Position numbers and translations under genes: made by a program. DNA of 11,530 nucleotides from Candidatus Latescibacterota bacterium (GTDB lineage: Bacteria > JAAXHH01 > JACQVL01): positions 1-11,530 of the forward strand of contig JACQVL010000274.1 in NCBI GenBank assembly GCA_016209865.1, written 5' to 3'. Numbering within the stretch: the first letter of the stretch is position 1; every line of letters starts with the position of its first letter. The notes under the pieces are model-generated. The model saw only the letters and a list, made by a program, of their open reading frames with translations. It made no database searches and was not told the DNA's origin. Positions 1-9,497 of this stretch are shown here, piece after piece.

Positions 1-1169
1 AATCGTCCGGGGAGCTGGTGGAGACCGTGGTGCTGTCGACCTGCAACCGGAGCGAGATTTACGCCACGACGAACGGGGCCGCCCCGGACCCGAGGCCGGG
101 GGAGACGTGGTTCTACCAGATCCACGGTCTGTCGGACGGGGACCTCACCCCGTATCTCTACCGACTGACGGACGAAGCGGCCATCCGCCATCTCTTCCGG
201 GTCGTGTCCAGCCTCGATTCGATGGTCGTGGGGGAGCAGCAGATTCTCGGCCAGGTGAAAGAGGCTTACCTCCGCTCGCTCGAAGAGCAGACGACGGGCG
301 TCATCCTGAACCGGCTGTTCGAGCGGGCGCTGGAGGTCGGGAAACTCGTCCGCGAGACGACCGACATCGGGGTGGGCGCGGTGTCGGTCAGTTCCGTGGC
401 GGTCGAGTTGGCGAAGAAGATCTTCAAAGACCTGGGCCGGCACACCGCGATGCTCATCGGCGCCGGAGAGACGAGCGAGCTCACCGCCCGGTACCTGGTG
501 GAGAACGGGATCAAAACGGTCATCGTGGCCAACCGGACGCACGAGCGGGCGGTCGAATTGGCGGAGCGGATCGACGGCCGGGCGGTCCGGTTCGAGGAAG
601 CCCGTCGGTGGATGACCGAGGTGGACATCGTCATCAGTTCGACGGGCGCACCGCATTACATCCTGAGCCGGGATGAGATGGTCGAAATCATGCACGACCG
701 GCGGAACCGGCCGATCTTCCTGATCGATATCGCCGTCCCACGGGACATCGACCCCCAGGCACGCAGTGTCTACAACGTCTTCTTGTACGACATCGACGAT
801 CTGCAGTCGGTCGTCGATGATAACGCTGAGCGGCGCCGGAAAGAGGGGATGAAAGCGGAGCGGATCATCGAGGAGGAAGTCGCCAGATTCCTCAGCTGGT
901 ACCGGGGACTGGCCGTCACTCCGACGATCGCCCAGTTGCGACAGTACGCCGACCAGGTTCGGACGAGCGAGGTGGAGCGCGCGCTGGCCCGCCTGAAACA
1001 TCTCTCCGAGGCCGATCATAAGACGATCGAGCAGATGAGTCAGGCTCTCGTCAATAAACTCCTCCATACCCCCACTGTCCGCCTCAAAGCGTCGTCGGAC
1101 CCCGGCCGCGAACTTCAGTACCTCCACGCCCTCCGCCATCTGTTCGGGCTGGACGAGGAAAAGCAATGA
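1..1169 (+). CDS. hemA: Glutamyl-tRNA reductase, 5'-partial
   Basis: Reduces glutamyl-tRNA(Glu) with NADPH to glutamate-1-semialdehyde, the first committed step of the C5 route to 5-aminolevulinate in the cytosol. The frame is open to the left edge (first full codon at 3). About 36 N-terminal residues are missing, judged from the catalytic Cys in STCNR (codon 42-44), which is Cys50 in the E. coli enzyme. The GTG at 18 lies inside this conserved block and is not the real start. Further family blocks are VVGEQQILGQVKEAY, the GVGAVSVSSVAVELAKK linker and the Rossmann motif GAGETSELTARYL. A C-terminal helical dimerisation region ends in HLFGLDEEKQ. HemL, the next enzyme and usual channelling partner, is encoded at the far end of this same cluster. 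The stop codon directly adjoins a heptamer-repeat spacer leading to hemC. Identification is firm. Confidence 0.97.
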   Translation, partial: SSGELVETVVLSTCNRSEIYATTNGAAPDPRPGETWFYQIHGLSDGDLTPYLYRLTDEAAIRHLFRVVSSLDSMVVGEQQILGQVKEAYLRSLEEQTTGVILNRLFERALEVGKLVRETTDIGVGAVSVSSVAVELAKKIFKDLGRHTAMLIGAGETSELTARYLVENGIKTVIVANRTHERAVELAERIDGRAVRFEEARRWMTEVDIVISSTGAPHYILSRDEMVEIMHDRRNRPIFLIDIAVPRDIDPQARSVYNVFLYDIDDLQSVVDDNAERRRKEGMKAERIIEEEVARFLSWYRGLAVTPTIAQLRQYADQVRTSEVERALARLKHLSEADHKTIEQMSQALVNKLLHTPTVRLKASSDPGRELQYLHALRHLFGLDEEKQ

Positions 1170-1170
1170 A

Positions 1171-1285
1171 GAGTGGCGAGTGACGAGTTAAAGAATAAAA
1201 ACAATTCATGTTGGTGCCCCATTTCTCTTCTGTTTCTCTTTGTTCTTACCCGTCACTCGTCACTCATCACTTGTCACTCGTCACT
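1171..1285 (+). repeat. Heptamer-armed inverted repeat between hemA and hemC
   Basis: This occupies almost the whole hemA-hemC spacer. The right arm (1251-1285) is five tandem 7-bp units close to CGTCACT; units 3 and 4 each differ at one base. The left arm (1172-1188) is about 2.5 units of the complementary AGTGACG. Pairing 1172-1188 with 1248-1264 gives 15 Watson-Crick pairs, one G-U and one mismatch over 17 nt. The loop side is purine-rich on the left (AAGAATAAAA) and pyrimidine-rich on the right (TTTGTTCTT), which could extend the stem. The element starts two bases after the hemA stop and ends eight bases before the hemC start. It could act as an attenuator, an RNA-stability hairpin or a mobile repeat; the sequence cannot say which. 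Confidence 0.8.
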
Positions 1286-1293
1286 TGATCTGT

Positions 1294-2196
1294 ATGTCTC
1301 TCTCCCTCATCATCGGCACGCGCGGCAGCCAGCTCGCCCTCGCGCAGACGCGGATGGTCGCCCATGACCTCCAGGCGGCGAACCCCGGCCTGACAGTCGA
1401 GACGCGTACGCTCACGACCACAGGGGATCGGATCACGGACGCCCCGCTTGCCTCGTTCGGCGGCGAGGGGGTGTTCGTCAAGGAGCTCGAACGGGCGCTC
1501 CTGTCCGGGGAGATCGACCTGGCCGTCCACAGCCTGAAGGACCTGCCGACGACTGTGCCTGATGGCCTCGTCATCGCCGCAGTGCCGGAGCGAGCCGACG
1601 TCCGGGATGCGCTCCTCGCCAAACAGCCTGGTGGGCTGGCCGTCCTTCCCGACGGGGCGCGCATCGGGACGAGCAGTCCGCGGCGGCGGGCGCAGTTGCT
1701 CTCCCACCGGCCAGACCTGCAGATCACCAACCTGCGCGGCAACCTCGACACCCGCCTCCGGAAACTCACTGAGACCGACCTGGACGCCATCGTCCTGGCT
1801 GCTGCCGGCCTCGACCGGCTGGGGTGGAGCGACCGGATCACCGAGCGATTATCTTGTGAGATTTGCCTTCCGGCCGTCAGTCAGGGGGCGCTCGCCGTCG
1901 AGACGCGACGGGATGACGACGCTATCATCGCGGCGGTCAGCCGGCTCAACCACGAACCCACTGTCACTGCCGTCACCGCAGAACGGGCGTTCTTGCGTGC
2001 ACTTGGCGGGGGATGCCAGGTGCCCGTCGGCGCCTGGGCGCGGTTCGAGGGGCCGACGCTCCGGCTGGATGGAATGATCGCGCACAGCGACGGCGTCTGG
2101 CTCGTCCGGGACGCGGTCGCCGGCCGGCCGGATGAGGCAGAAGAGTTAGGATCACGGCTGGCGGCGATGCTGCTGGAACGGATGCCCAAAGAGTGA
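1294..2196 (+). CDS. hemC: Hydroxymethylbilane synthase (porphobilinogen deaminase)
   Basis: Condenses four porphobilinogens head-to-tail into the linear tetrapyrrole hydroxymethylbilane, the substrate of the HemD domain encoded next. From ATG 1294 the protein has 300 residues, close to the family's usual length, and opens with the canonical MSLSLIIGTRGSQLALAQT. The catalytic Asp lies in HSLKDLPT (Asp83). TSSPRR (about 126-131) and NLRGNLDTRL (about 146-155) carry the cofactor/substrate-binding arginines. Cys241 in GGGCQVPVGA is the attachment site of the dipyrromethane cofactor. The frame stays open upstream to a TTG at 1240, but that stretch only translates the heptamer repeats, so ATG 1294 is preferred. 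No Shine-Dalgarno sequence is visible between the repeat and the ATG, which is unusual here. The last codon and stop overlap GTG 2193 of the next frame, suggesting coupling. Confidence 0.97.
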   Translation: MSLSLIIGTRGSQLALAQTRMVAHDLQAANPGLTVETRTLTTTGDRITDAPLASFGGEGVFVKELERALLSGEIDLAVHSLKDLPTTVPDGLVIAAVPERADVRDALLAKQPGGLAVLPDGARIGTSSPRRRAQLLSHRPDLQITNLRGNLDTRLRKLTETDLDAIVLAAAGLDRLGWSDRITERLSCEICLPAVSQGALAVETRRDDDAIIAAVSRLNHEPTVTAVTAERAFLRALGGGCQVPVGAWARFEGPTLRLDGMIAHSDGVWLVRDAVAGRPDEAEELGSRLAAMLLERMPKE

Positions 2197-2216
2197 ACAG
2201 GGCAAAGAGGGAAAAA

Positions 2217-3743
2217 GTGACCGGCATCGTGTACCTCGTCGGCGCGGGGCCGGGCGACCCCGGCCTGATCACCGTCAAGGGCCTCGCCTGCCTGAGACAG
2301 GCAGACATAGTGGTGTTCGACCACTTGGCGGATGCTCGGCTCGTCGCAGAAGCCTCGCCGCATGCGGAACGCATCTCCGTCCCCTGGCAGCCCGACCGGC
2401 AGGAACGGATCAACCAGATTTTGCTGGAGTACGCGCGCGCCGGGAAGACAGTCGTCCGGCTCAAAGGTGGCGACCCGTTCGTGTTCGGACGCGGCGGCGA
2501 GGAGACGCTGTTCCTGGCGGAGCACGGCATTCCGTTCGAGATCGTTCCCGGCGTGACCGCCGCCGTCGCCGTCCCCGCGTACGCGGGCATTCCCCTGACG
2601 CATCGGGGACTCGCATCCACGATCGCCATCGTGACGGGACACGAGGACCCGGCAAAGCCAAACTCGCACATCGACTGGCAGGCGCTCGCCGCCGGCATCG
2701 GGACGCTCGTCTTTTACATGGGCGCGAAAAACCTGCCGTCGATCGTCGAGCACCTGATCGCCCACGGAAAACCAGCCGGCACCCCCGTCGCGCTCATCCA
2801 GTGGGGCACGAAGCCGTCCCAGCGGACGCTGGTCGGGACGCTGGCGGACATCGTCCCGCGAGCTCAGCAGGCCGCGTTCAAGCCGCCCGTCCTCATCATC
2901 GTCGGAGACGTCGTCCGGCTGCGGGAGCAGCTCAACTGGTTCGAGACGAAGCCGCTCTTCGGCCTCCGGGTGCTCGTTACCCGCAGCCGGGAACAGGCGG
3001 GCGATCTCTCCGGCTGGCTGGCCGCGGCGGGAGCAGAACCGGTCGAAGTCCCGCTCATCCGGATTACCGACCCGGATGACTGGATGCCCCTCGACCATGT
3101 GATCGACCAACTCAATACGTACGACTGGCTCGTCTTCACGAGCGTGAACGGGGTAGAGAAATTTTTTGATCGGCTGTTCGCCTCCGGCCGGGATGTGAGA
3201 GCGTTGAGCGGGCTGAAAATCGGAGTCGTCGGAACGGCGACGGTTGAGCGTATGCGCACATACGGGACAGTCGCAGACTACCATCCAGTACGCTTCGACG
3301 CCGATGCACTCGTCGAAGGACTCGGCCAGTCATACACGATGCGCGGCGCCCGCGTCCTGTTCCCCAGCGCCGATATCGCGCGGGAGACGGTCGTCACCGG
3401 CCTGCGCGCCCTGGGCGCGGAGGTCATGCCGGTCGTCGCGTACCGCACCGTGTCCGAGACGACCCTTCCGCCCGCCATCATGACGATGCTCGAACAGGGG
3501 GAGATTCATGTCATCACGTTCGCCAGCCCGTCTACGGTGAAAGCGTTCATGCATGTTATCGGGGAGTCGCGCGCCCTCGACCTGCTGTCCCGCGTCGTCG
3601 TCGCCTGTATGGGGCCGGTCACACAGCAGGCGGCGGAGAACGCCGGAATGCGGGTCGGGATCGTCCCGGCGGAGGCGACGATCCCGGCGCTCGTTCATGC
3701 GATAGAAGAGCATTATCATGCCTCACATCGACATCGACCCTGA
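2217..3743 (+). CDS. cobA-hemD: Fused uroporphyrinogen-III C-methyltransferase / uroporphyrinogen-III synthase
   Basis: A two-domain enzyme. Residues 3-242 are a SUMT (CobA) methylase that uses S-adenosylmethionine to make precorrin-2 from uroporphyrinogen III. Residues about 248-505 are the HemD cyclase that makes uroporphyrinogen III from HemC's product. SUMT motifs visible are YLVGAGPGDPGLITVKG, VVRLKGGDPFVFGRGGEE (79-96), PGVTAAVAVPAYAGIPLTHR and VTGH. The HemD part opens with GLRVLVTRSREQAGDLSGWL and includes VFTSVNGVEKFF and ITFASPSTVKAF. GTG 2217 is chosen because AGAGG lies six bases upstream and the protein then begins right before the methylase fold (508 residues). GTG 2193, which overlaps the hemC stop as GTGA, would add eight residues (MNRAKREK) and cannot be excluded. 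The fusion places the branch-point enzyme and its substrate source in one chain. The 3' end overlaps the ferredoxin gene by 26 bases. Confidence 0.95.
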   Translation: MTGIVYLVGAGPGDPGLITVKGLACLRQADIVVFDHLADARLVAEASPHAERISVPWQPDRQERINQILLEYARAGKTVVRLKGGDPFVFGRGGEETLFLAEHGIPFEIVPGVTAAVAVPAYAGIPLTHRGLASTIAIVTGHEDPAKPNSHIDWQALAAGIGTLVFYMGAKNLPSIVEHLIAHGKPAGTPVALIQWGTKPSQRTLVGTLADIVPRAQQAAFKPPVLIIVGDVVRLREQLNWFETKPLFGLRVLVTRSREQAGDLSGWLAAAGAEPVEVPLIRITDPDDWMPLDHVIDQLNTYDWLVFTSVNGVEKFFDRLFASGRDVRALSGLKIGVVGTATVERMRTYGTVADYHPVRFDADALVEGLGQSYTMRGARVLFPSADIARETVVTGLRALGAEVMPVVAYRTVSETTLPPAIMTMLEQGEIHVITFASPSTVKAFMHVIGESRALDLLSRVVVACMGPVTQQAAENAGMRVGIVPAEATIPALVHAIEEHYHASHRHRP

Positions 3744-3897
3744 GAAATGCGGTTACTGCGGTGGGTGCGTGATCGTCTGCCACGACGACGCGATCGACCT
3801 GCTCGAAGTGACGCTGACGATCTCGGACGCCTGCACCCTCTGCAACGCGTGCATCGTCTTCTGCCCGGTCGGCGCGCTGGAGATGGCGGATGACTGA
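3718..3897 (+). CDS. Small 2[4Fe-4S] ferredoxin
   Basis: A 59-residue protein beginning MPHIDIDPEKCGYCGGCVI. Two cluster-binding motifs are complete: Cys11-x2-Cys14-x2-Cys17-x3-Cys21 and Cys39-x2-Cys42-x2-Cys45-x3-Cys49-Pro. This is the bacterial-type dicluster ferredoxin pattern, a cytosolic one-electron carrier. The residue after Cys21 is His, where this family commonly has Pro, which could alter the environment of one cluster. The start overlaps the end of cobA-hemD by 26 bases, and its stop overlaps the next ATG by 8 bases (ATGACTGA), so it should be translated with the adjacent flavoprotein. Ferredoxins encoded next to geranylgeranyl reductases donate electrons to them in some methanogenic archaea; by analogy this is probably the partner of the 3890 gene. 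Partner assignment is inference. Confidence 0.9.
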   Translation: MPHIDIDPEKCGYCGGCVIVCHDDAIDLLEVTLTISDACTLCNACIVFCPVGALEMADD

Positions 3898-5068
3898 GCA
3901 GTATGATGTCGTCGTCGTCGGAGCGGGCCCGGGCGGGTCGGTCACGGCCAAAACGCTCGCCGCCCGCGGTGTCTCCGTCCTGCTCGTCGAGAAGCGGCAG
4001 GAGATCGGAGCAGCCCTCCGGTGCGCGGAGGTGGTCGGACCTCGGCCGGAAATCCGCCGGTTTATCGAGGTCGATGAGGGCTGGGTTCTGCAAGACATCG
4101 ATGAGCTGTGGCTCTTCCCGCCGGGCGGACAGAAGATCGAAAAACGCCTCCCCGGCTGCGGGGTGCTGGTCGATCGCAAGCGGTTCGATAAAGCCTTAGC
4201 CATCGCGGCAGCCGACGCGGGCGCGCGGGTGTGGACGAAGACACGGGCGACCGGATTGACGCGGGAGGATGGTCGCGTCGTCGTCACCCTCCGCCATCTC
4301 GGGACGGACCGCCGGGTCGCCGCCCGCGTCGTCGTCGGCGCGGACGGGGTGGAGTCGCTCGTCGGCCGGTGGGGCGGGATCGAGACCGCGCTGGGACTGA
4401 CGGGCGTGTTCTCCGCCGTCCAGTACCACCTGACGGGGATCGACGGGCCGTCCGGAGTGCTGCAGTTCTTCTTCGGGAACGAGGTCGCGCCCGGCGGCTA
4501 CCTGTGGGTGTTCCCCAAAGGCGACCGCACGGCGAACGTCGGGGTGTGCGTCTCGCCCGCCTGCCAGAAAGACCGGCGCGCGCTCGATTACCTGAACGCG
4601 TTCGTCGCCGCCCGGTACCCGGAGGCCAGCTCGGTCGAGATGGCGATGGGTGGGATTCCGATCGCGGGCCCGCTGAAGTCGCTCGTCGCGGACAACGTCG
4701 TGCTCGTTGGGGACGCCGGCCATCAGACGAACCCGCTGTCCGCTGGCGGCATCATGAACGCGATGGTCGCGGGAGCGATGGCCGCTGAGGTCATCGCGGA
4801 TGCGCTCGCGCGGCGGGATGTCTCCAAAGAGAGCCTCAGCGCGTACGACCAGCGATGGCGTGAGACGGCGGGCAACCTCTACCGCTGGCATGCCCGCCTG
4901 CGCCGGCTCTACCTCAAGCTGAGCGACCGTGACCTCGACCGGCTCGGCGAGGTGCTGGCCGCGCTCATCAGAGATCGCCAGCCAGACGACCTGTACAGCA
5001 TCGAGTTCGTTGCAACCCTGCTCAGGTCGATGGCCTGGATGCTACCGAAGTTCCGTTTTTTGAGGTGA
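3890..5068 (+). CDS. Geranylgeranyl-reductase-family FAD-dependent oxidoreductase
   Basis: A 392-residue flavoprotein of the GGR/ChlP group, which saturates isoprenoid double bonds of quinones, lipids or chlorophyll tails. Visible are the N-terminal dinucleotide fold YDVVVVGAGPGGSVTA (GxGxxG at 11-16, Glu34 ending strand 2) and RCAEVVG with Cys45, matching the conserved Cys of archaeal GGRs. Also present are GCGVLVDRKRFDKAL, VVGADGVESLVGR, the substrate-cavity motif YLWVFP (204-209) and the FAD-closing motif GDAGHQTNPLSAGGI (274-288). ATG 3890 has GGAG seven bases upstream and overlaps the ferredoxin stop, so the pair is coupled. The next gene starts six bases after the stop. The true substrate is unknown: menaquinone or polyprenyl chains are the default guess, while the tetrapyrrole setting leaves open a porphyrin-linked substrate. 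Family call is strong; substrate call is not. Confidence 0.88.
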   Translation: MTEQYDVVVVGAGPGGSVTAKTLAARGVSVLLVEKRQEIGAALRCAEVVGPRPEIRRFIEVDEGWVLQDIDELWLFPPGGQKIEKRLPGCGVLVDRKRFDKALAIAAADAGARVWTKTRATGLTREDGRVVVTLRHLGTDRRVAARVVVGADGVESLVGRWGGIETALGLTGVFSAVQYHLTGIDGPSGVLQFFFGNEVAPGGYLWVFPKGDRTANVGVCVSPACQKDRRALDYLNAFVAARYPEASSVEMAMGGIPIAGPLKSLVADNVVLVGDAGHQTNPLSAGGIMNAMVAGAMAAEVIADALARRDVSKESLSAYDQRWRETAGNLYRWHARLRRLYLKLSDRDLDRLGEVLAALIRDRQPDDLYSIEFVATLLRSMAWMLPKFRFLR

Positions 5069-5074
5069 ACAATC

Positions 5075-5734
5075 ATGCCGTTCTGCCCGGACTGCGAATA
5101 CGAATACGAAGGCGACATCACCGTCTGCCCGGACTGCGGGGCGACGCTCGTCGAGGCGTTGACGGAGCAGCCTCAGTACATCTGCGACGAATGTAAAGAG
5201 CCCCTGCCGGGCGATGCCGCGTGGTGCTCCCAGTGTGGAACAGTCTTCATCGACACGCTCCGGTGCTTCCGTCACCCGGACACGTCCGCGCATGGCCGGT
5301 GCGTCATCTGCGGCCAGCATCTGTGCAAACAGTGCGCCGTCCGGAACATGGGACGGTATTTCTGCGAACAGGACGCGAACGTTGAGATGGTCGAAGGGTA
5401 CGTCAACGTGTACACCACCGGGCACGATTGGGAAGCAGAGTTGATCAAAGGCTACCTTGAGAACGAGGGCATTCCGTGTCGAGTCTTCTCCCAGAAAGAC
5501 ACCTCCCGGATGTTCACCATCGGGAATTTGAGTGTCATCAAACTGCTCGTCCCACGCTCCCGGTTTCGCGAAGCGGAGATGATTCTTGCCGAGAAATTCG
5601 TCCCCTCCGGCGCCGTCCAGTATGAGTGCGAACGGTGCGGGGCGATCTGCGGGAAGGACGAGATGCGGTGTCCGAATTGTGGGGAGGAGTTTGAGGAAGA
5701 GAGGGGTCAGGGGTCAGGGGTCAGGGGTCAGTGA
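5075..5734 (+). CDS. Zinc-ribbon protein with DUF2007 domain
   Basis: A 219-residue protein of unknown function rich in CxxC pairs. Cys4/7 with Cys18/21 form the first zinc ribbon and Cys37/40 with Cys51/54 the second. A B-box-like segment at 64-97 has Cys64, His67, Cys76, Cys79, Cys84, Cys87 and Cys97. Residues about 116-175 (GHDWEAELIKGYLENEGIPC to SRFREAEMILAEKF) match the DUF2007 'putative signal transducing' fold. Cys185/188 and Cys199/202 close a C-terminal zinc ribbon. No signal peptide or membrane segment is seen. GAGGTG, overlapping the stop of the preceding gene, sits six to seven bases before the ATG, so it is coupled to the GGR gene. The last residues (GQGSGVRGQ) and the stop codon are encoded by 7-bp repeats, so the native C-terminus has probably been extended or replaced. 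It may be a regulatory or metal-sensing adaptor; I cannot assign a function. Confidence 0.85.
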   Translation: MPFCPDCEYEYEGDITVCPDCGATLVEALTEQPQYICDECKEPLPGDAAWCSQCGTVFIDTLRCFRHPDTSAHGRCVICGQHLCKQCAVRNMGRYFCEQDANVEMVEGYVNVYTTGHDWEAELIKGYLENEGIPCRVFSQKDTSRMFTIGNLSVIKLLVPRSRFREAEMILAEKFVPSGAVQYECERCGAICGKDEMRCPNCGEEFEEERGQGSGVRGQ

Positions 5735-5831
5735 GGTCAGAAAATCAGGAAAATGGGAGAAGATGGGGAAATCGTATTTGCCGAGCATCTCTTTCCGGTC
5801 TTGTCTTTCCTGACCCCTGAATCCTGACCCC
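5703..5831 (+). repeat. Heptamer-armed inverted repeat between zinc-ribbon gene and hemB
   Basis: The left arm is four perfect tandem copies of GGGGTCA (5703-5730), running through the last codons of the upstream gene; a partial copy follows the stop. The right arm (5811-5831) is TGACCCC, TGAATCC, TGACCCC. The arms pair at 22 of 24 positions. The intervening 70-80 nt is again purine-rich on the left (AGAAAATCAGGAAAATGGGA) and pyrimidine-rich on the right (TCTTGTCTTTCC), so the hairpin may be much longer than the arms. It ends 23 bases before hemB and leaves that gene's ribosome binding site free. The layout matches the hemA-hemC element, but the heptamer sequence is unrelated. Confidence 0.82.
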
Positions 5832-5841
5832 TGCTTTTCTG

Positions 5842-5848
5842 AAAGGAG
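5842..5848 (+). promoter_or_regulatory. Ribosome binding site of hemB
   Basis: AAAGGAG lies six bases before ATG 5855. It is the strongest Shine-Dalgarno match in the window and sits just outside the right heptamer arm, so hemB translation should not depend on melting the hairpin. Confidence 0.75.
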
Positions 5849-5854
5849 TCTCCC

Positions 5855-6829
5855 ATGCTATTCCCCATCCACCGGCCGCGCCGGTTACGCCGGACGGAGG
5901 CATTACGCCGGATGGTGCGCGAGACCCGGCTGTCCGTCGATGACCTGATCGAGCCGCTGTTCGTCTGCCCGGGACACCGGTCCCGCCAGGAAGTCGGATC
6001 GATGCCGGGCGTCTTCCGGCTGTCCGTCGATCTGTGCGTCGACGAATGCCGCCGGACGGCGGAGGTTGGGATTCCGGCGGTCATCCTGTTCGGCATCCCG
6101 GAGTCGAAGGACGCGGTCGGGTCCGGGGCGTACGCGGAGGACGGGATCGTCCAGCGCGCCGTCCGGGAGGTCAAACAGGCGTGCCCCGACCTGACGGTCA
6201 TCACGGACGTGTGTTTGTGTGAATACACCGACCACGGGCATTGCGGGGTGATCCGCGACGGAGACGTGGAGAACGACCCGACGCTCAACCTTTTGACGAA
6301 GACCGCCCTTTCGCACGCCCGCGCGGGCGCGGACATCATCGCCCCGTCGGACATGATGGACGGCCGGGTCGGGACGATCCGCTGTGGGTTGGATGAGAAC
6401 GGGTTTACCCAGACTCCTATTATGGCGTATTCTGCGAAATATGCGTCCGCTTACTACGGCCCGTTCCGGGAAGCCGCCGGTTCCGCCCCACAGTTCGGCG
6501 ACCGGCGGTCGTACCAGATGGACCCGGCCAACGCGGAGGAGGCGCTCCGGGAAGTGGAGCTCGACCTCGACGAAGGGGCGGACATCGTCATGGTCAAGCC
6601 TGCCTTAGCGTACCTGGACATCATCCATCGGGTGAAAACCCAGTTCGGCGTCCCGGTCGCCGCGTACAACGTCAGCGGGGAGTACGCGATGATCAAAGCC
6701 GCCGGCCGGTTGGGCTGGGTCGATGAGACGCGGGTGATGATGGAGACGCTGACCGCCATCAAACGGGCGGGCGCGGATTTGATCCTGACGTATTTTGCAA
6801 AGGATGTGGCCGGATTATTGAGGGATTAG
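5855..6829 (+). CDS. hemB: Porphobilinogen synthase (5-aminolevulinate dehydratase), Zn-type
   Basis: Condenses two 5-aminolevulinates into porphobilinogen, linking HemL's product to HemC. The protein has 324 residues, normal for the family. The Schiff-base lysines are Lys195 in [16 protein letters not shown] and Lys248 in [13 protein letters not shown]. The metal site is the cysteine-rich form, Cys120-x-Cys122-x7-Cys130 in [15 protein letters not shown], so a catalytic-zinc enzyme is expected rather than the Mg-only type with aspartates. Other family blocks are [40 protein letters not shown] and [13 protein letters not shown]. The ATG at 5855 follows AAAGGAG by six bases. The stop lies inside degenerate 7-bp repeats that begin the hemB-hemL spacer. 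Identification is firm. Confidence 0.98.
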
Positions 6830-6917
6830 GGGGTGGGAAATGGATTCCCGCTTTCGCGGGAATGACAACAACGTGTGTTCTTCCCGAACCCCGTACCCCG
6901 AATCCCGAACCCCGAGG
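6818..6917 (+). repeat. Degenerate heptamer arms around a palindrome, hemB-hemL spacer
   Basis: The right side (6883-6917) holds five 7-bp units close to CCCGAAC, ending directly in the hemL ribosome binding site. The left side (6818-6838) reads TTGAGGG, ATTAGGG, GGTGGGA. This is a weak complement of the right arm (whose reverse complement contains ATTCGGG and GTACGGG) and includes the hemB stop. The 28-bp palindromic element at 6841-6868 lies between them. The right array is clear; the left arm is a weaker reading. Confidence 0.6.
6841..6868 (+). repeat. Palindromic interspersed repeat, dRS3-like, copy 1
   Basis: A perfect hairpin, ATTCCCGC-TTTC-GCGGGAAT (6844-6863), inside a 28-bp sequence whose exact reverse complement occurs at 8261-8288. 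The core fits ATTCCC-N8-GGGAAT, the pattern of the neisserial dRS3 repeat; similar palindromes are widespread in bacterial intergenic DNA. In one frame it translates as MDSRFRGND, which can create a false hemL extension. Confidence 0.85.
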
Positions 6918-6919
6918 AG
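6914..6919 (+). promoter_or_regulatory. Ribosome binding site of hemL
   Basis: GAGGAG lies seven bases before ATG 6927 and decides the start. Its first bases belong to the last unit of the CCCGAAC heptamer array, so any folding of the array would affect access to this site. Confidence 0.7.
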
Positions 6920-6926
6920 ACGACGG

Positions 6927-8222
6927 ATGAATCGATCCCGATCCCATACCCTTTTTGCGCGAGCCCAGCAACTTCTCCCCGGCGGCGTCAACAGTCCGGT
7001 GCGGAACTTCGGCCGGGTGGGCGGCAATCCGGTGTTCATGGCTCGTGGAGCCGGGTCGAAGGTGTACGACGTCGACGGCAACGAGTACATCGACTACCTC
7101 GGCTCCTGGGGGCCGCTCATCCTCGGCCACAGCCACCCGAAGGTGGTGGAAGCCCTCAAGCGGGTGTGCGAGACCGGGACGAGCTTCGGGGCGCCGACCG
7201 AGATCGAGGTGCGATTAGCGGAACTCGTTCTCTCCGCGTTCCCGTCGATCGACCACGTCCGGATGGTCAACTCCGGGACGGAGGCGACGATGAGCGCCGT
7301 CCGGGTTGCCCGCGGGTACACCGGCCGGGACCGGATCGTCAAGTTCGAGGCCGGGTATCATGGTCATGGGGACAGCTTCCTCATCAAGGCCGGGTCGGGT
7401 GCGGCGACGTTCGGCATCCCCGACAGTCCGGGCGTCCCGGCGGCATTGGCGGAGCTGACGATCAACCTCCCGTTCAACGATGCGGAGGCCGTCACACGAA
7501 CCCTTTCGGAGCGCGGGGATGAGATCGCGTGCGTCATCGTCGAGCCGGTGGCGGGCAACATGGGGATGATCCCGCCGCGGCCCGGCTTCCTCCAGACGCT
7601 CCGGTCGGAGACGGCGAAGCGCGGCATCATCCTGATCTTCGACGAAGTGATCACCGGGTTCCGCGTCGCGTTCGGTGGCGCTCAGGAGCTGTACGGAATT
7701 CAGGCGGACATGACCTGCTTAGGAAAGATCATCGGCGGCGGCCTGCCGGTCGGGGCGTACGGCGGCCGGAAAGAGATCATGCAGTCGGTCGCCCCGTCAG
7801 GCGCGGTCTACCAAGCGGGCACCCTCTCCGGCAACCCGTTGGCGATGACGGCGGGGTACGAGACCTTAACGCTGCTTCAAGAACCGGGGGTGTACGAACG
7901 CTTGGAGCGGATGGCCGCCCGATTAGCGGATGGACTGCGTGCAGCGGCACAAGAGGCGGGCGTTCAGACGTGTCTCACCCGCGTCGGGTCGATGTTCTGC
8001 ACGTTCTTCACGGACCGGGAGGTGTACGATTACGACGCCGCCGCGTCATCGAACGCAGAGCAGTACAGCCGGTACTTCTGGGGGATGCTCGACCGGGGGG
8101 TGTACCTCGCCCCGTCCCGACTGGAGACCGGATTTGTCTCTTTGGCGCATACGGAGGAGGATATTGAGAGGACGATTGAAGCGAGCCGGGAGAGCCTGAA
8201 GGCGGTGACGAGTGACCAGTGA
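6927..8222 (+). CDS. hemL: Glutamate-1-semialdehyde 2,1-aminomutase
   Basis: A PLP enzyme that isomerises glutamate-1-semialdehyde, made by HemA, to 5-aminolevulinate. The protein has 431 residues from ATG 6927, normal for HemL, and starts [20 protein letters not shown] with the family motif [13 protein letters not shown]. The cofactor lysine is Lys267 in [17 protein letters not shown]. Other blocks are [56 protein letters not shown] and [18 protein letters not shown]. The frame is open upstream to 6840, but that part only translates the palindrome and heptamer spacer. The C-terminal residues AVTSDQ and the stop codon are encoded by GTGACGA-type heptamers, a sign that the 3' end was overwritten or extended by repeats. 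The gene is flanked by inverted copies of a 28-bp palindrome. It is the last + strand gene of the cluster and converges with the nucleotidyltransferase gene. Confidence 0.98.
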
Positions 8223-8225
8223 CGA
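8205..8225 (+). repeat. Three tandem heptamers at the hemL 3' end
   Basis: GTGACGA, GTGACCA, GTGACGA in tandem, containing the hemL stop codon. It is the same heptamer family as the hemA-hemC spacer. A possible degenerate complementary stretch lies at 8299-8319 (CGTCCAC, TACCCAC, TGTCCGG), inside the 3' end of the convergent gene. Confidence 0.7.
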
Positions 8226-8260
8226 GTAATGCCATTTCCCTATGATAACATCGCGTAGGA

Positions 8261-8288
8261 TTGTCATTCCCGCGAAAGCGGGAATCCA
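8261..8288 (-). repeat. Palindromic interspersed repeat, dRS3-like, copy 2
   Basis: The exact reverse complement of 6841-6868. The hairpin core at 8266-8285 is an 8-bp perfect stem with a GAAA loop. It lies in the 72-base convergent spacer between the hemL and nucleotidyltransferase stops, where a symmetrical hairpin could serve as a two-way transcription stop, though no clear U-tract follows on either strand. No other terminator is visible here. Confidence 0.85.
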
Positions 8289-8294
8289 GTCATT

Positions 8295-9497
8295 TCATCG
8301 TCCACTACCCACTGTCCGGTTTTCCCAAATCCGTCGCACCCGTTGTATCCCTTTCATCACCGCAGTCCACGGCACCTGCCACAGGTGATCGACTCCCCAG
8401 AGGTGCTGGAGAAACTGTGGAAATCCGATCAATTTGTTGTAGAAGCCATCACGGCCGATCGACTCGACATACTGCTGGTACCGGAGCCGGAGCATCGACA
8501 TCGGCTTTCTCAGGTCTTCCGGGCCAGTCTTGGCCTGATACTCCATCTGCTCCGCGTTCGACACCGGGGCTTGACGCAGAGCGTGCAGCACGGACGGGGG
8601 GATTGGAGCGTCCAGTCGCTCATGCAGATAACTCAGCATGTCCCGGATCGGTAAGCTCAGACGGTGCTGTTGAGCCTGGGCGACGAGCCGGTTCCAGTCG
8701 AGACCGGGCGAATCGTTCACGATCACCATCGCGTCGACGATCCAGCGTAACGGAGGCGTCCCGCTCCATCGCGCGCCGTGCACGCACACGTGCAGCAATT
8801 GATCAGCCGGGTTCAGGACGGAGACGGGCACATCGTCAAGACGCGTCGAGATCGCCCCCGACCAGAAGTCGTCATCCGCGTGGGGCTGGCAGCAGTCGAG
8901 CAGCGCATGCCAGTGGAGGTCGCATTCATACCCGCCGGGGTCGCGGAATCCATGCGCGTGAATGGCTGACTGATACGCCTCCGTCAACGTCGCCGGGAAG
9001 GCGCGGATCGGTGTCCAGCGTAAGGCGCCCAGGACCGTGACCGCCGCGGACGCCTGGGCAGTCGGCACCAGGACGTCAAAATCCTCCATCGGCCGCAGGC
9101 CGTAATCGCGGTAATAGAGCAGGATGAGCGCCGCTCCTTTGAGTACCATCGTCTCGATCTCGGCCGCGTGGAACGCGCGGAGGAGCCCAGCCAGGCGATG
9201 GAAGAGGAGCTGGTTTTTATACCACGTGTGGCGGTAGATGCCCTTGAACCGCTGCATCAGCGGATGGTCGATGTCTTGCGCTCGCAGGTTCCGGTAGAGC
9301 AATGGCAGGAGTTGATACGACCCCGCGTCGAGGTGATCGAGGTCGAGGCCGTCGTGCCAGGCTTCCCAGGCCACGACAGCGTCTCGGCCCTGCCAAAGCA
9401 CCGCTTTGACCAACAACTCCTGCTGCGGGGTCGGCCAGCAGGCGCCTTGCGATGAATTGCGGATTGCAGATTGCGGATTGCGGATTGAGAAATCCAT
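8295..9497 (-). CDS. Nucleotidyltransferase-like protein, NTP_transf_5 family
   Basis: A 400-residue member of the uncharacterised nucleotidyltransferase family (PF14907 type). The diagnostic region is MVLKGAALILLYYRDYGLRP followed by MEDFDVLVP: Lys120-Gly121 and the acidic pair Asp139/Asp141, as in polymerase-beta-fold NTases (Gly-Ser is replaced by Gly-Ala). Downstream, YECDLHWHALL, NPADQLLHVCVHGARW and LRWIVDAMVIV match the family's helical part. The substrate is unknown. Relatives occur in polysaccharide loci and as accessory genes of lasso-peptide clusters. ATG 9497 shares its A with the stop of the ABC gene (TAATG), so translation is coupled. Residues about 4-14 (SIRNPQSAIRN) are encoded by 7-bp repeats, and recognisable family sequence begins only after residue 20. 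The 3' end (TVGSGR) may also overlap weak heptamers. Confidence 0.85.
   Translation of the reverse strand: MDFSIRNPQSAIRNSSQGACWPTPQQELLVKAVLWQGRDAVVAWEAWHDGLDLDHLDAGSYQLLPLLYRNLRAQDIDHPLMQRFKGIYRHTWYKNQLLFHRLAGLLRAFHAAEIETMVLKGAALILLYYRDYGLRPMEDFDVLVPTAQASAAVTVLGALRWTPIRAFPATLTEAYQSAIHAHGFRDPGGYECDLHWHALLDCCQPHADDDFWSGAISTRLDDVPVSVLNPADQLLHVCVHGARWSGTPPLRWIVDAMVIVNDSPGLDWNRLVAQAQQHRLSLPIRDMLSYLHERLDAPIPPSVLHALRQAPVSNAEQMEYQAKTGPEDLRKPMSMLRLRYQQYVESIGRDGFYNKLIGFPQFLQHLWGVDHLWQVPWTAVMKGIQRVRRIWENRTVGSGR
9454..9488 (-). repeat. Five tandem heptamers inside the nucleotidyltransferase start region
   Basis: On the + strand the units are GAATTGC, GGATTGC, AGATTGC, GGATTGC and GGATTGA in perfect 7-bp register. 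On the coding (-) strand they read as GCAATCC-type repeats and specify IRNPQSAIRN. No complementary arm is seen nearby, unlike the hemA-hemC and pre-hemB elements. The array begins seven bases inside the start codon of the gene. Confidence 0.8.

Follow-up and report, generated by a model that had tools for sequence, protein, structure and literature searches.

Heptamer arrays of many unit families follow one strand rule at gene borders in a Candidatus Latescibacterota genome

Described heptamer repeats and the arms of the window

Tandem heptamers near gene ends are known from Xanthomonas (unit GGGAATC) and Nostoc (unit GGGGAYT), where they obey a strand rule and have been linked to quadruplexes, and where no regulatory role was found for them (Rehm et al. 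2015, PMC4692102). The same study described inverted convergent pairs of these repeats, with 70–75 cases in Xanthomonas and few in Nostoc. Geobacter metallireducens carries pairs of 7-mer and 8-mer arrays whose two members lie on opposite strands (Aklujkar et al. 2009, PMC2700814). Mrazek (2007), as cited in PMC4692102 and PMC4679880, found that in most bacterial genomes examined no class of long simple repeats was more abundant than heptamers, and is also cited for proposing that the polymerase interacts with a length of 7 nt. The preliminary description of the DNA studied here matched its inverted arms at operon junctions to no described class, an arrangement that is in fact already known from the pairs of Xanthomonas (PMC4692102) and G. 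metallireducens (PMC2700814).

The window, by which we mean the whole stretch of 11,530 nucleotides that was analysed, is one whole contig (C204) of a 3.75 Mb genome that is in 356 contigs and 83% complete. Its plus strand carries hemA, hemC, a cobA/hemD fusion, a ferredoxin gene, a geranylgeranyl-reductase-like gene, a zinc-ribbon/DUF2007 gene, hemB and hemL, and beyond hemL an NTP_transf_5 gene and then an ABC transporter lie on the minus strand. The best-ranked named relative of HemB comes from a Candidatus Poribacteria genome (73% identity), another match of 73% is labelled Spirochaetes, and 14 of the 15 same-order genomes compared have HemB matches of 75–78% identity. The repeats of the window are as follows, with TRF marking positions given by that program.

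1167–1188, plus strand: left arm, unit GTGACGA, directly after the hemA stop (1167–1169), G-rich strand sense (TRF)
1251–1285 (from 1248 in the arm-pair scan), minus strand: right arm, GTGACGA inverted, five units, 8 bp before the hemC start (1294) (TRF)
5702–5731, plus strand: left arm, four units of GGGGTCA, overlapping the end of the zinc-ribbon/DUF2007 gene (TRF)
5809–5833, minus strand: right arm, GGGGTCA inverted, 21 bp before the hemB start (5855) (TRF)
6842–6866, plus strand: REP-like palindrome GGATTCCCGCTTTCGCGGGAATGAC in the hemB–hemL spacer, a dispersed repeat unrelated to the arrays
6883–6917 (6883–6915 in TRF), minus strand: single arm, unit GGGGTTC/GGGATTC (CCCGAAC on the plus strand), before the hemL start (6927)
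8205–8227, plus strand: single arm, unit GTGACGA, overlapping the hemL end (TRF)
8263–8287, minus strand: inverted copy of the REP-like palindrome in the convergent hemL/NTP_transf_5 spacer
9454–9488 (9456–9487 in TRF), plus strand: single arm, unit GGATTGC, antisense, on the side where the NTP_transf_5 gene of the minus strand starts

All seven arms have period 7 in TRF, and every heptamer array noted in the preliminary description was found again at the position first reported or a few bases from it. Five unit families had been listed there; since CGTCACT is GTGACGA read on the other strand, the window holds four. A lag-match scan of periods 2 to 30 gave only 7 and multiples of 7 at equal score, and zero arrays were found by the same scan in 100 Markov shuffles of the window. 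Inverted arms face each other at two junctions, hemA–hemC and zinc-ribbon–hemB, and the other three junctions are single-armed; at all seven arms the G-rich strand runs out of the gene, which we refer to below as the border rule.

Some arms extend into the genes themselves. The last residues of the zinc-ribbon/DUF2007 product before its TGA (RGQGSGVRGQ) are encoded by the GGGGTCA array at 5702–5731, and the GTGACGA array at 8205–8227 supplies both the C-terminus VTSDQ and the TGA stop of hemL. Separately, the NTP_transf_5 open reading frame on the minus strand (9375–9497) has a possible start before its array that would give the array-coded N-terminus SIRNPQSAIRNSS, the true start being uncertain. 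Predicted RNA folds of the two arm pairs reached z = −5.1 for hemA–hemC (1165–1292) and −74.4 kcal/mol with z = −6.0 for zinc-ribbon–hemB (5695–5840), and an Rfam search of the window gave no match at gathering scores. The REP-like palindrome has 199 copies in the genome within 2 mismatches (reversed control, 0), and is present in 15 of 106 array spacers and 7 of 142 array-free spacers.

Arrays across the genome

Arrays were sampled in 80 stretches amounting to 0.77 Mb, or 20% of the genome, 40 of which (395 kb) form an unbiased subset picked by contig number with repeats disregarded; two relatives were sampled at 0.48 Mb and 0.44 Mb. Genes were called with a simple hexamer-based caller, whose stops are reliable and whose starts are approximate, and Markov controls gave 0 to 3 arrays at the thresholds applied in the genome sample. 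Extrapolating from the unbiased subset, the genome contains about 990 arrays. Spacer or gene-edge arrays in these 395 kb numbered 85 with period 7, 12 with period 8 and one each with periods 6 and 12, and none had period 4, 5, 9, 10 or 11. Period-9 arrays and most of period 12 sit within coding sequence in the same subset, as expected of in-frame repeats. Spacers and gene edges account for 85 of the 90 heptamer arrays, non-coding DNA making up 9.1% of the bases, and the earlier observation that arrays hug stops and starts is thus confirmed on the scale of the genome sample. The commonest unit (pattern GTGACGAGTGACGAG, at most one mismatch) has 755 matches in the genome versus 4 for its reversed control, and about ten unit families occur, all under one rule.

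Octamer arrays also make inverted spacer pairs in this genome, for example at L056:2149–2232 and L030:57–135. The earlier statement that unit length is always 7 is therefore correct for the window but too strict for the genome, with its 12 spacer octamers against 85 heptamers, and since the octamers share the same architecture the length limit is 7–8 bp rather than exactly 7. A scan of the genome sample for tandem 7-mers found border enrichment, inverted arms and unit variation between loci, all three of which the preliminary description had proposed to look for. It had also named equal abundance of other unit lengths as an outcome that would count against it; this is not the case in the sampled genome, but octamers do match heptamers in G013, a relative discussed below (32 versus 28).

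Of the arrays no more than 40 bp from a gene end, 154 have a G-rich strand that runs out of the gene, sense after a stop and antisense before a start, and 23 have it the opposite way. The bias was 72 to 12 in the unbiased sample and 122 to 19 when one array was taken per gap. Pyrimidine-rich G-strands, such as GGATTTT, obey the rule 18:1, and the rule tracks G/C skew, not purine content. A purine gradient across spacers was considered as an effect of the arrays and rejected, as it is present in array-free spacers too. Arrays with no inverted partner detected still obey the rule (71:20). We hold the reality of the arrays and of the border rule with very high confidence.

The arms themselves have a defined build. 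Their lengths peak at about 24 bp (24–25) and about 31 bp (30–33), or three or four units plus a part unit; the preference for four units reported for the heptamer class is thus found here, with 30–33 bp as the peak and 24–25 bp second. Arms mostly start and finish at one fixed point of the unit, and in the main family variants sit in the middle of the arm, the outermost unit at either end being mostly consensus. Units are skewed to G over C, the C-strand of the arrays being 41% C and 12% G. On the G-rich strand, A content is 38–39% before the arm and about 50% after it, versus 23% in spacers, and these A-rich flanks are seen on paired and unpaired arms alike and across most families, a hint that the arm moves as a defined module.

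We counted an array as having an inverted partner when at least 13 of 14 bases of its own unit occurred inverted in the same spacer. This was so for 82 of 190 arrays (43%), versus 1 of 190 (about 0.5%) in direct orientation, 0 in shuffled spacers and 4 with the unit of another family. Among adjacent array pairs, 36 of 49 face inward (G-rich on the left, C-rich on the right), and 29 of these 36 share the same unit family, where 13.5 were expected and 21 was the maximum in 5000 permutations. In the main family, the two arms have 10 non-consensus units in common versus 5.3 by permutation (p = 0.007), and no sharing of variant units between arms was seen in the smaller families. Arm-to-arm distance ranges from 12 to 158 bp, and no interior sequence is shared beyond the REP-like palindrome and one 14-base match. 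An extended foldback of the whole spacer was also considered and rejected: with the arrays removed, array spacers have z = −0.63 versus −1.30 in array-free spacers, so they fold no better than the latter and the fold signal resides in the arrays.

Relatives and unit turnover

G013 belongs to the same order but to another family, and its octamers mostly follow the same border rule. The leading octamer there, AAATCACC, differs from the AATCACC heptamer of the same genome by one added A, and the two coexist as a one-base change homogenised along arrays. Arrays of AAATCACC gave 329 matches in G013 and 0 in the other 15 genomes of the phylum. In the same way, the GTGACGA array, searched as a 19-mer pattern, was absent from 58 other genomes, including same-phylum ones. 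The dominant unit therefore differs completely between genomes of one order, and units are lineage-specific. In G002, the sampled genome of genus g3, one period-7 array was found in 440 kb. In several g3 relatives (L254–L261) we also observed, at the hemA–hemC junction, a tandem duplication of about 30 bp in 2 or 3 copies that takes in the hemA stop codon region.

The phenomenon is widespread: in a set of 80 HemB loci drawn from many phyla, the commonest period was 7 (17 arrays), with 12 arrays of period 6 and 2 of period 8, and 8 of the 19 arrays of period 7 or 8 had an inverted partner. On one contig labelled Armatimonadetes (NC_groundwater_1070), a GTGACGA-type heptamer lies upstream of hemB (L098:1353–1382), so that either the unit is widely shared or the bin bears a wrong label. 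A Planctomycetia contig (L164:6422–7253) has two inverted heptamer pairs lying close together, of CAGTTAT and ATCAGTG types, and by G/C skew one faces outward and one inward.

Candidate genes were compared between these genomes. The SbcD hairpin nuclease is present in the sampled genome (G000), G013, G011 and G001 and absent from five g3 genomes, among them the array-poor G002; its loss was rejected as a permissive cause, as the pattern is reversed, with array-bearing genomes keeping SbcD, and amounts to one phylogenetic contrast. Loss of mismatch repair was rejected as the driver because MutS is present in the genome. A dedicated polymerase had been among the mechanisms first suggested, and for one of the reverse-transcriptase type the distribution is unfavourable: PF00078 was not found in the sampled 83%-complete genome, in the array-bearing G013 and G011 or in G001, whereas the five g3 genomes searched do have matches, in what is again one phylogenetic contrast and so only a lead.

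Possible origins and comparison with known repeats

It is conceivable that each pair is a miniature element of the MITE or REPIN kind, with the heptamer arms as terminal inverted repeats, and that a trans-acting transposase inserted it whole into a short operon spacer. The inward topology with the same unit at both ends would fit, as would the A-rich arm flanks and the outer distances (median 24 bp), which are like those of ordinary spacers (median 38 bp). Spacer lengths point the same way at individual junctions, hemB–hemL being 97 bp here and −4 to 45 bp in 11 of 14 same-order relatives, hemA–hemC 124 bp versus 36 to 105 bp in same-order genomes, and zinc-ribbon–hemB 120 bp versus 9 bp in G013 (by inspection). 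Over 23 conserved junctions (10 versus 13), however, the length difference was in the expected direction but not significant (p = 0.20). The interiors have no conserved sequence or fixed size, and the Y1/REP (RAYT) transposase PF01797 had no match in the genome, which is 83% complete. We consider insertion of whole elements unlikely. An artefact of assembly or binning in a fragmented metagenome genome is hardly credible: arrays are twice as frequent at contig ends (11 of 112 versus 144 of 2800 interiors), which may mean that the repeats break the assembly, but the strand rule is strict, the loci number in the hundreds and differ in their flanking genes, and independent genomes show this architecture with other units.

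Function could also account for the placement. Were the G-rich arrays to fold four-stranded and control transcription or translation, the role suggested in Xanthomonas and Nostoc, the position and strand rule equal to those of Rehm et al. (2015, PMC4692102) would be expected, and the GGGGTCA and GGGGTTC families do have G-runs. Yet the dominant unit GTGACGA has none, and of 200 arrays 14 have a three-tetrad motif and 55 a two-tetrad motif, leaving 131 without even a two-tetrad motif. The rule holds equally in both classes (100:15 without a two-tetrad motif, 54:8 with quadruplex capacity), so quadruplex function cannot explain the placement and we consider it very improbable as the general cause. 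The arms may instead be protein- or Rho-binding sites, loading Rho on untranslated or antisense transcripts, or chromosome-protein sites as proposed for Geobacter. The C-rich, G-poor strand is the one transcribed by RNA polymerase entering a gene from either side, the rule is symmetric at borders and follows G/C skew rather than purines, single arms obey it too, and a rho gene is present. Three junctions carry unrelated arrays both here and in G013, where the unit is an octamer (3 of 8 versus 0 of 5, small numbers), but 3 of 13 junctions are too few to count as positional conservation. Moreover, rho is also found in array-poor relatives, arrays occur at only a minority of junctions and they are nearly missing from G002, and we regard binding sites of this kind as quite unlikely. 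A broader idea, which we put forward as a long shot, is that the arms are a putative sequence-independent mark of gene borders, for which any strongly G/C-skewed unit of 7–8 bp would serve. If so, the selected trait would be C-rich, G-poor RNA on every transcript coming into a gene from outside, in either direction, with Rho loading on untranslated and antisense transcripts as a possible use.

The reading we prefer, at about even chances, is that the arrays arise by slippage within arms, intrastrand template switching between arms and ectopic spread. On this reading every array is a single arm from a population of short spacer repeats that extends over the whole genome and is of the Xanthomonas and Nostoc kind. 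Replication slippage would lengthen and homogenise the arm, and its unit could then be copied to the facing arm when the polymerase switches template within the strand, much as quasipalindromes are corrected. Such switching at imperfect palindromes has been described as a mutational mechanism in yeast and apes, and we infer its application to these arms. Occasional ectopic recombination or copying might carry a successful unit to many spacers, giving the lineage a dominant unit, and selection for reading frame and gene integrity would confine the arrays to spacers, where paired arms could fold as a putative intercistronic hairpin or cruciform, with mRNA processing as a candidate use. Copying between arms would explain the inverted arms of the same unit, the limited sharing of variants and the lineage-specific units. 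It does not alone explain the single arms: more than half of the arrays have no detected partner, and these too obey the rule. Among the readings first offered for this DNA, spread plus homogenisation is the likeliest. The general idea of a generating mechanism with changing sequence also survives in part, as length is constrained and the unit varies within the genome and turns over between relatives, but the octamers speak against a mechanism tied to exactly 7 bp.

Kinship in kind with the Xanthomonas and Nostoc repeats can be stated with high confidence. As in those repeats (PMC4692102), the units here are heptamers enriched in spacers, with a preference for four units and a position within 50 bp of gene ends; the G-rich strand is coding after stops and non-coding before starts; and inverted convergent pairs occur, with under-representation between divergent genes. 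The arrays of G. metallireducens, in the parts of PMC2700814 compared, are similar in their opposite-strand pairs of 7- and 8-mers at variable distance and in having several families per genome, but they are read there as binding sites of a global regulator, some with insertion sequences at fixed distances, and those parts report no strand rule at gene borders such as is seen here. The STRR repeats of filamentous cyanobacteria (Mazel et al. 1990, as cited) likewise include three tandem heptanucleotide families in one genome. The TAACTGA repeats of Beggiatoaceae, cyanobacteria and Bacteroidetes (MacGregor 2015, PMC4679880) are also spacer heptamer arrays near start codons; unlike the present arrays, they have one unit, mostly just upstream of starts, with a single indirect repeat and no G/C skew.

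The differences from the Xanthomonas and Nostoc repeats lie in the units. About ten families coexist in this genome under a common rule, G-runs are missing from the main unit GTGACGA, octamers join in, and the dominant unit changes completely between same-order genomes. Period 7 in spacers, the strand rule, four units and inverted pairs are all shared with that class, and a quadruplex-forming unit is not. The arrays thus work like the Xanthomonas, Nostoc and Geobacter repeats but are a variant rather than a member of the quadruplex class. This genome separates the causes that have been proposed, as placement persists without quadruplex capacity and the length limit is 7–8 bp, and its roughly one thousand copies in about ten families are material for testing how heptamer repeats spread. 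What is new in comparison with the known systems is that many unit families follow one rule in one genome, and that most of the arrays are incapable of forming quadruplexes and yet abide by the rule equally.
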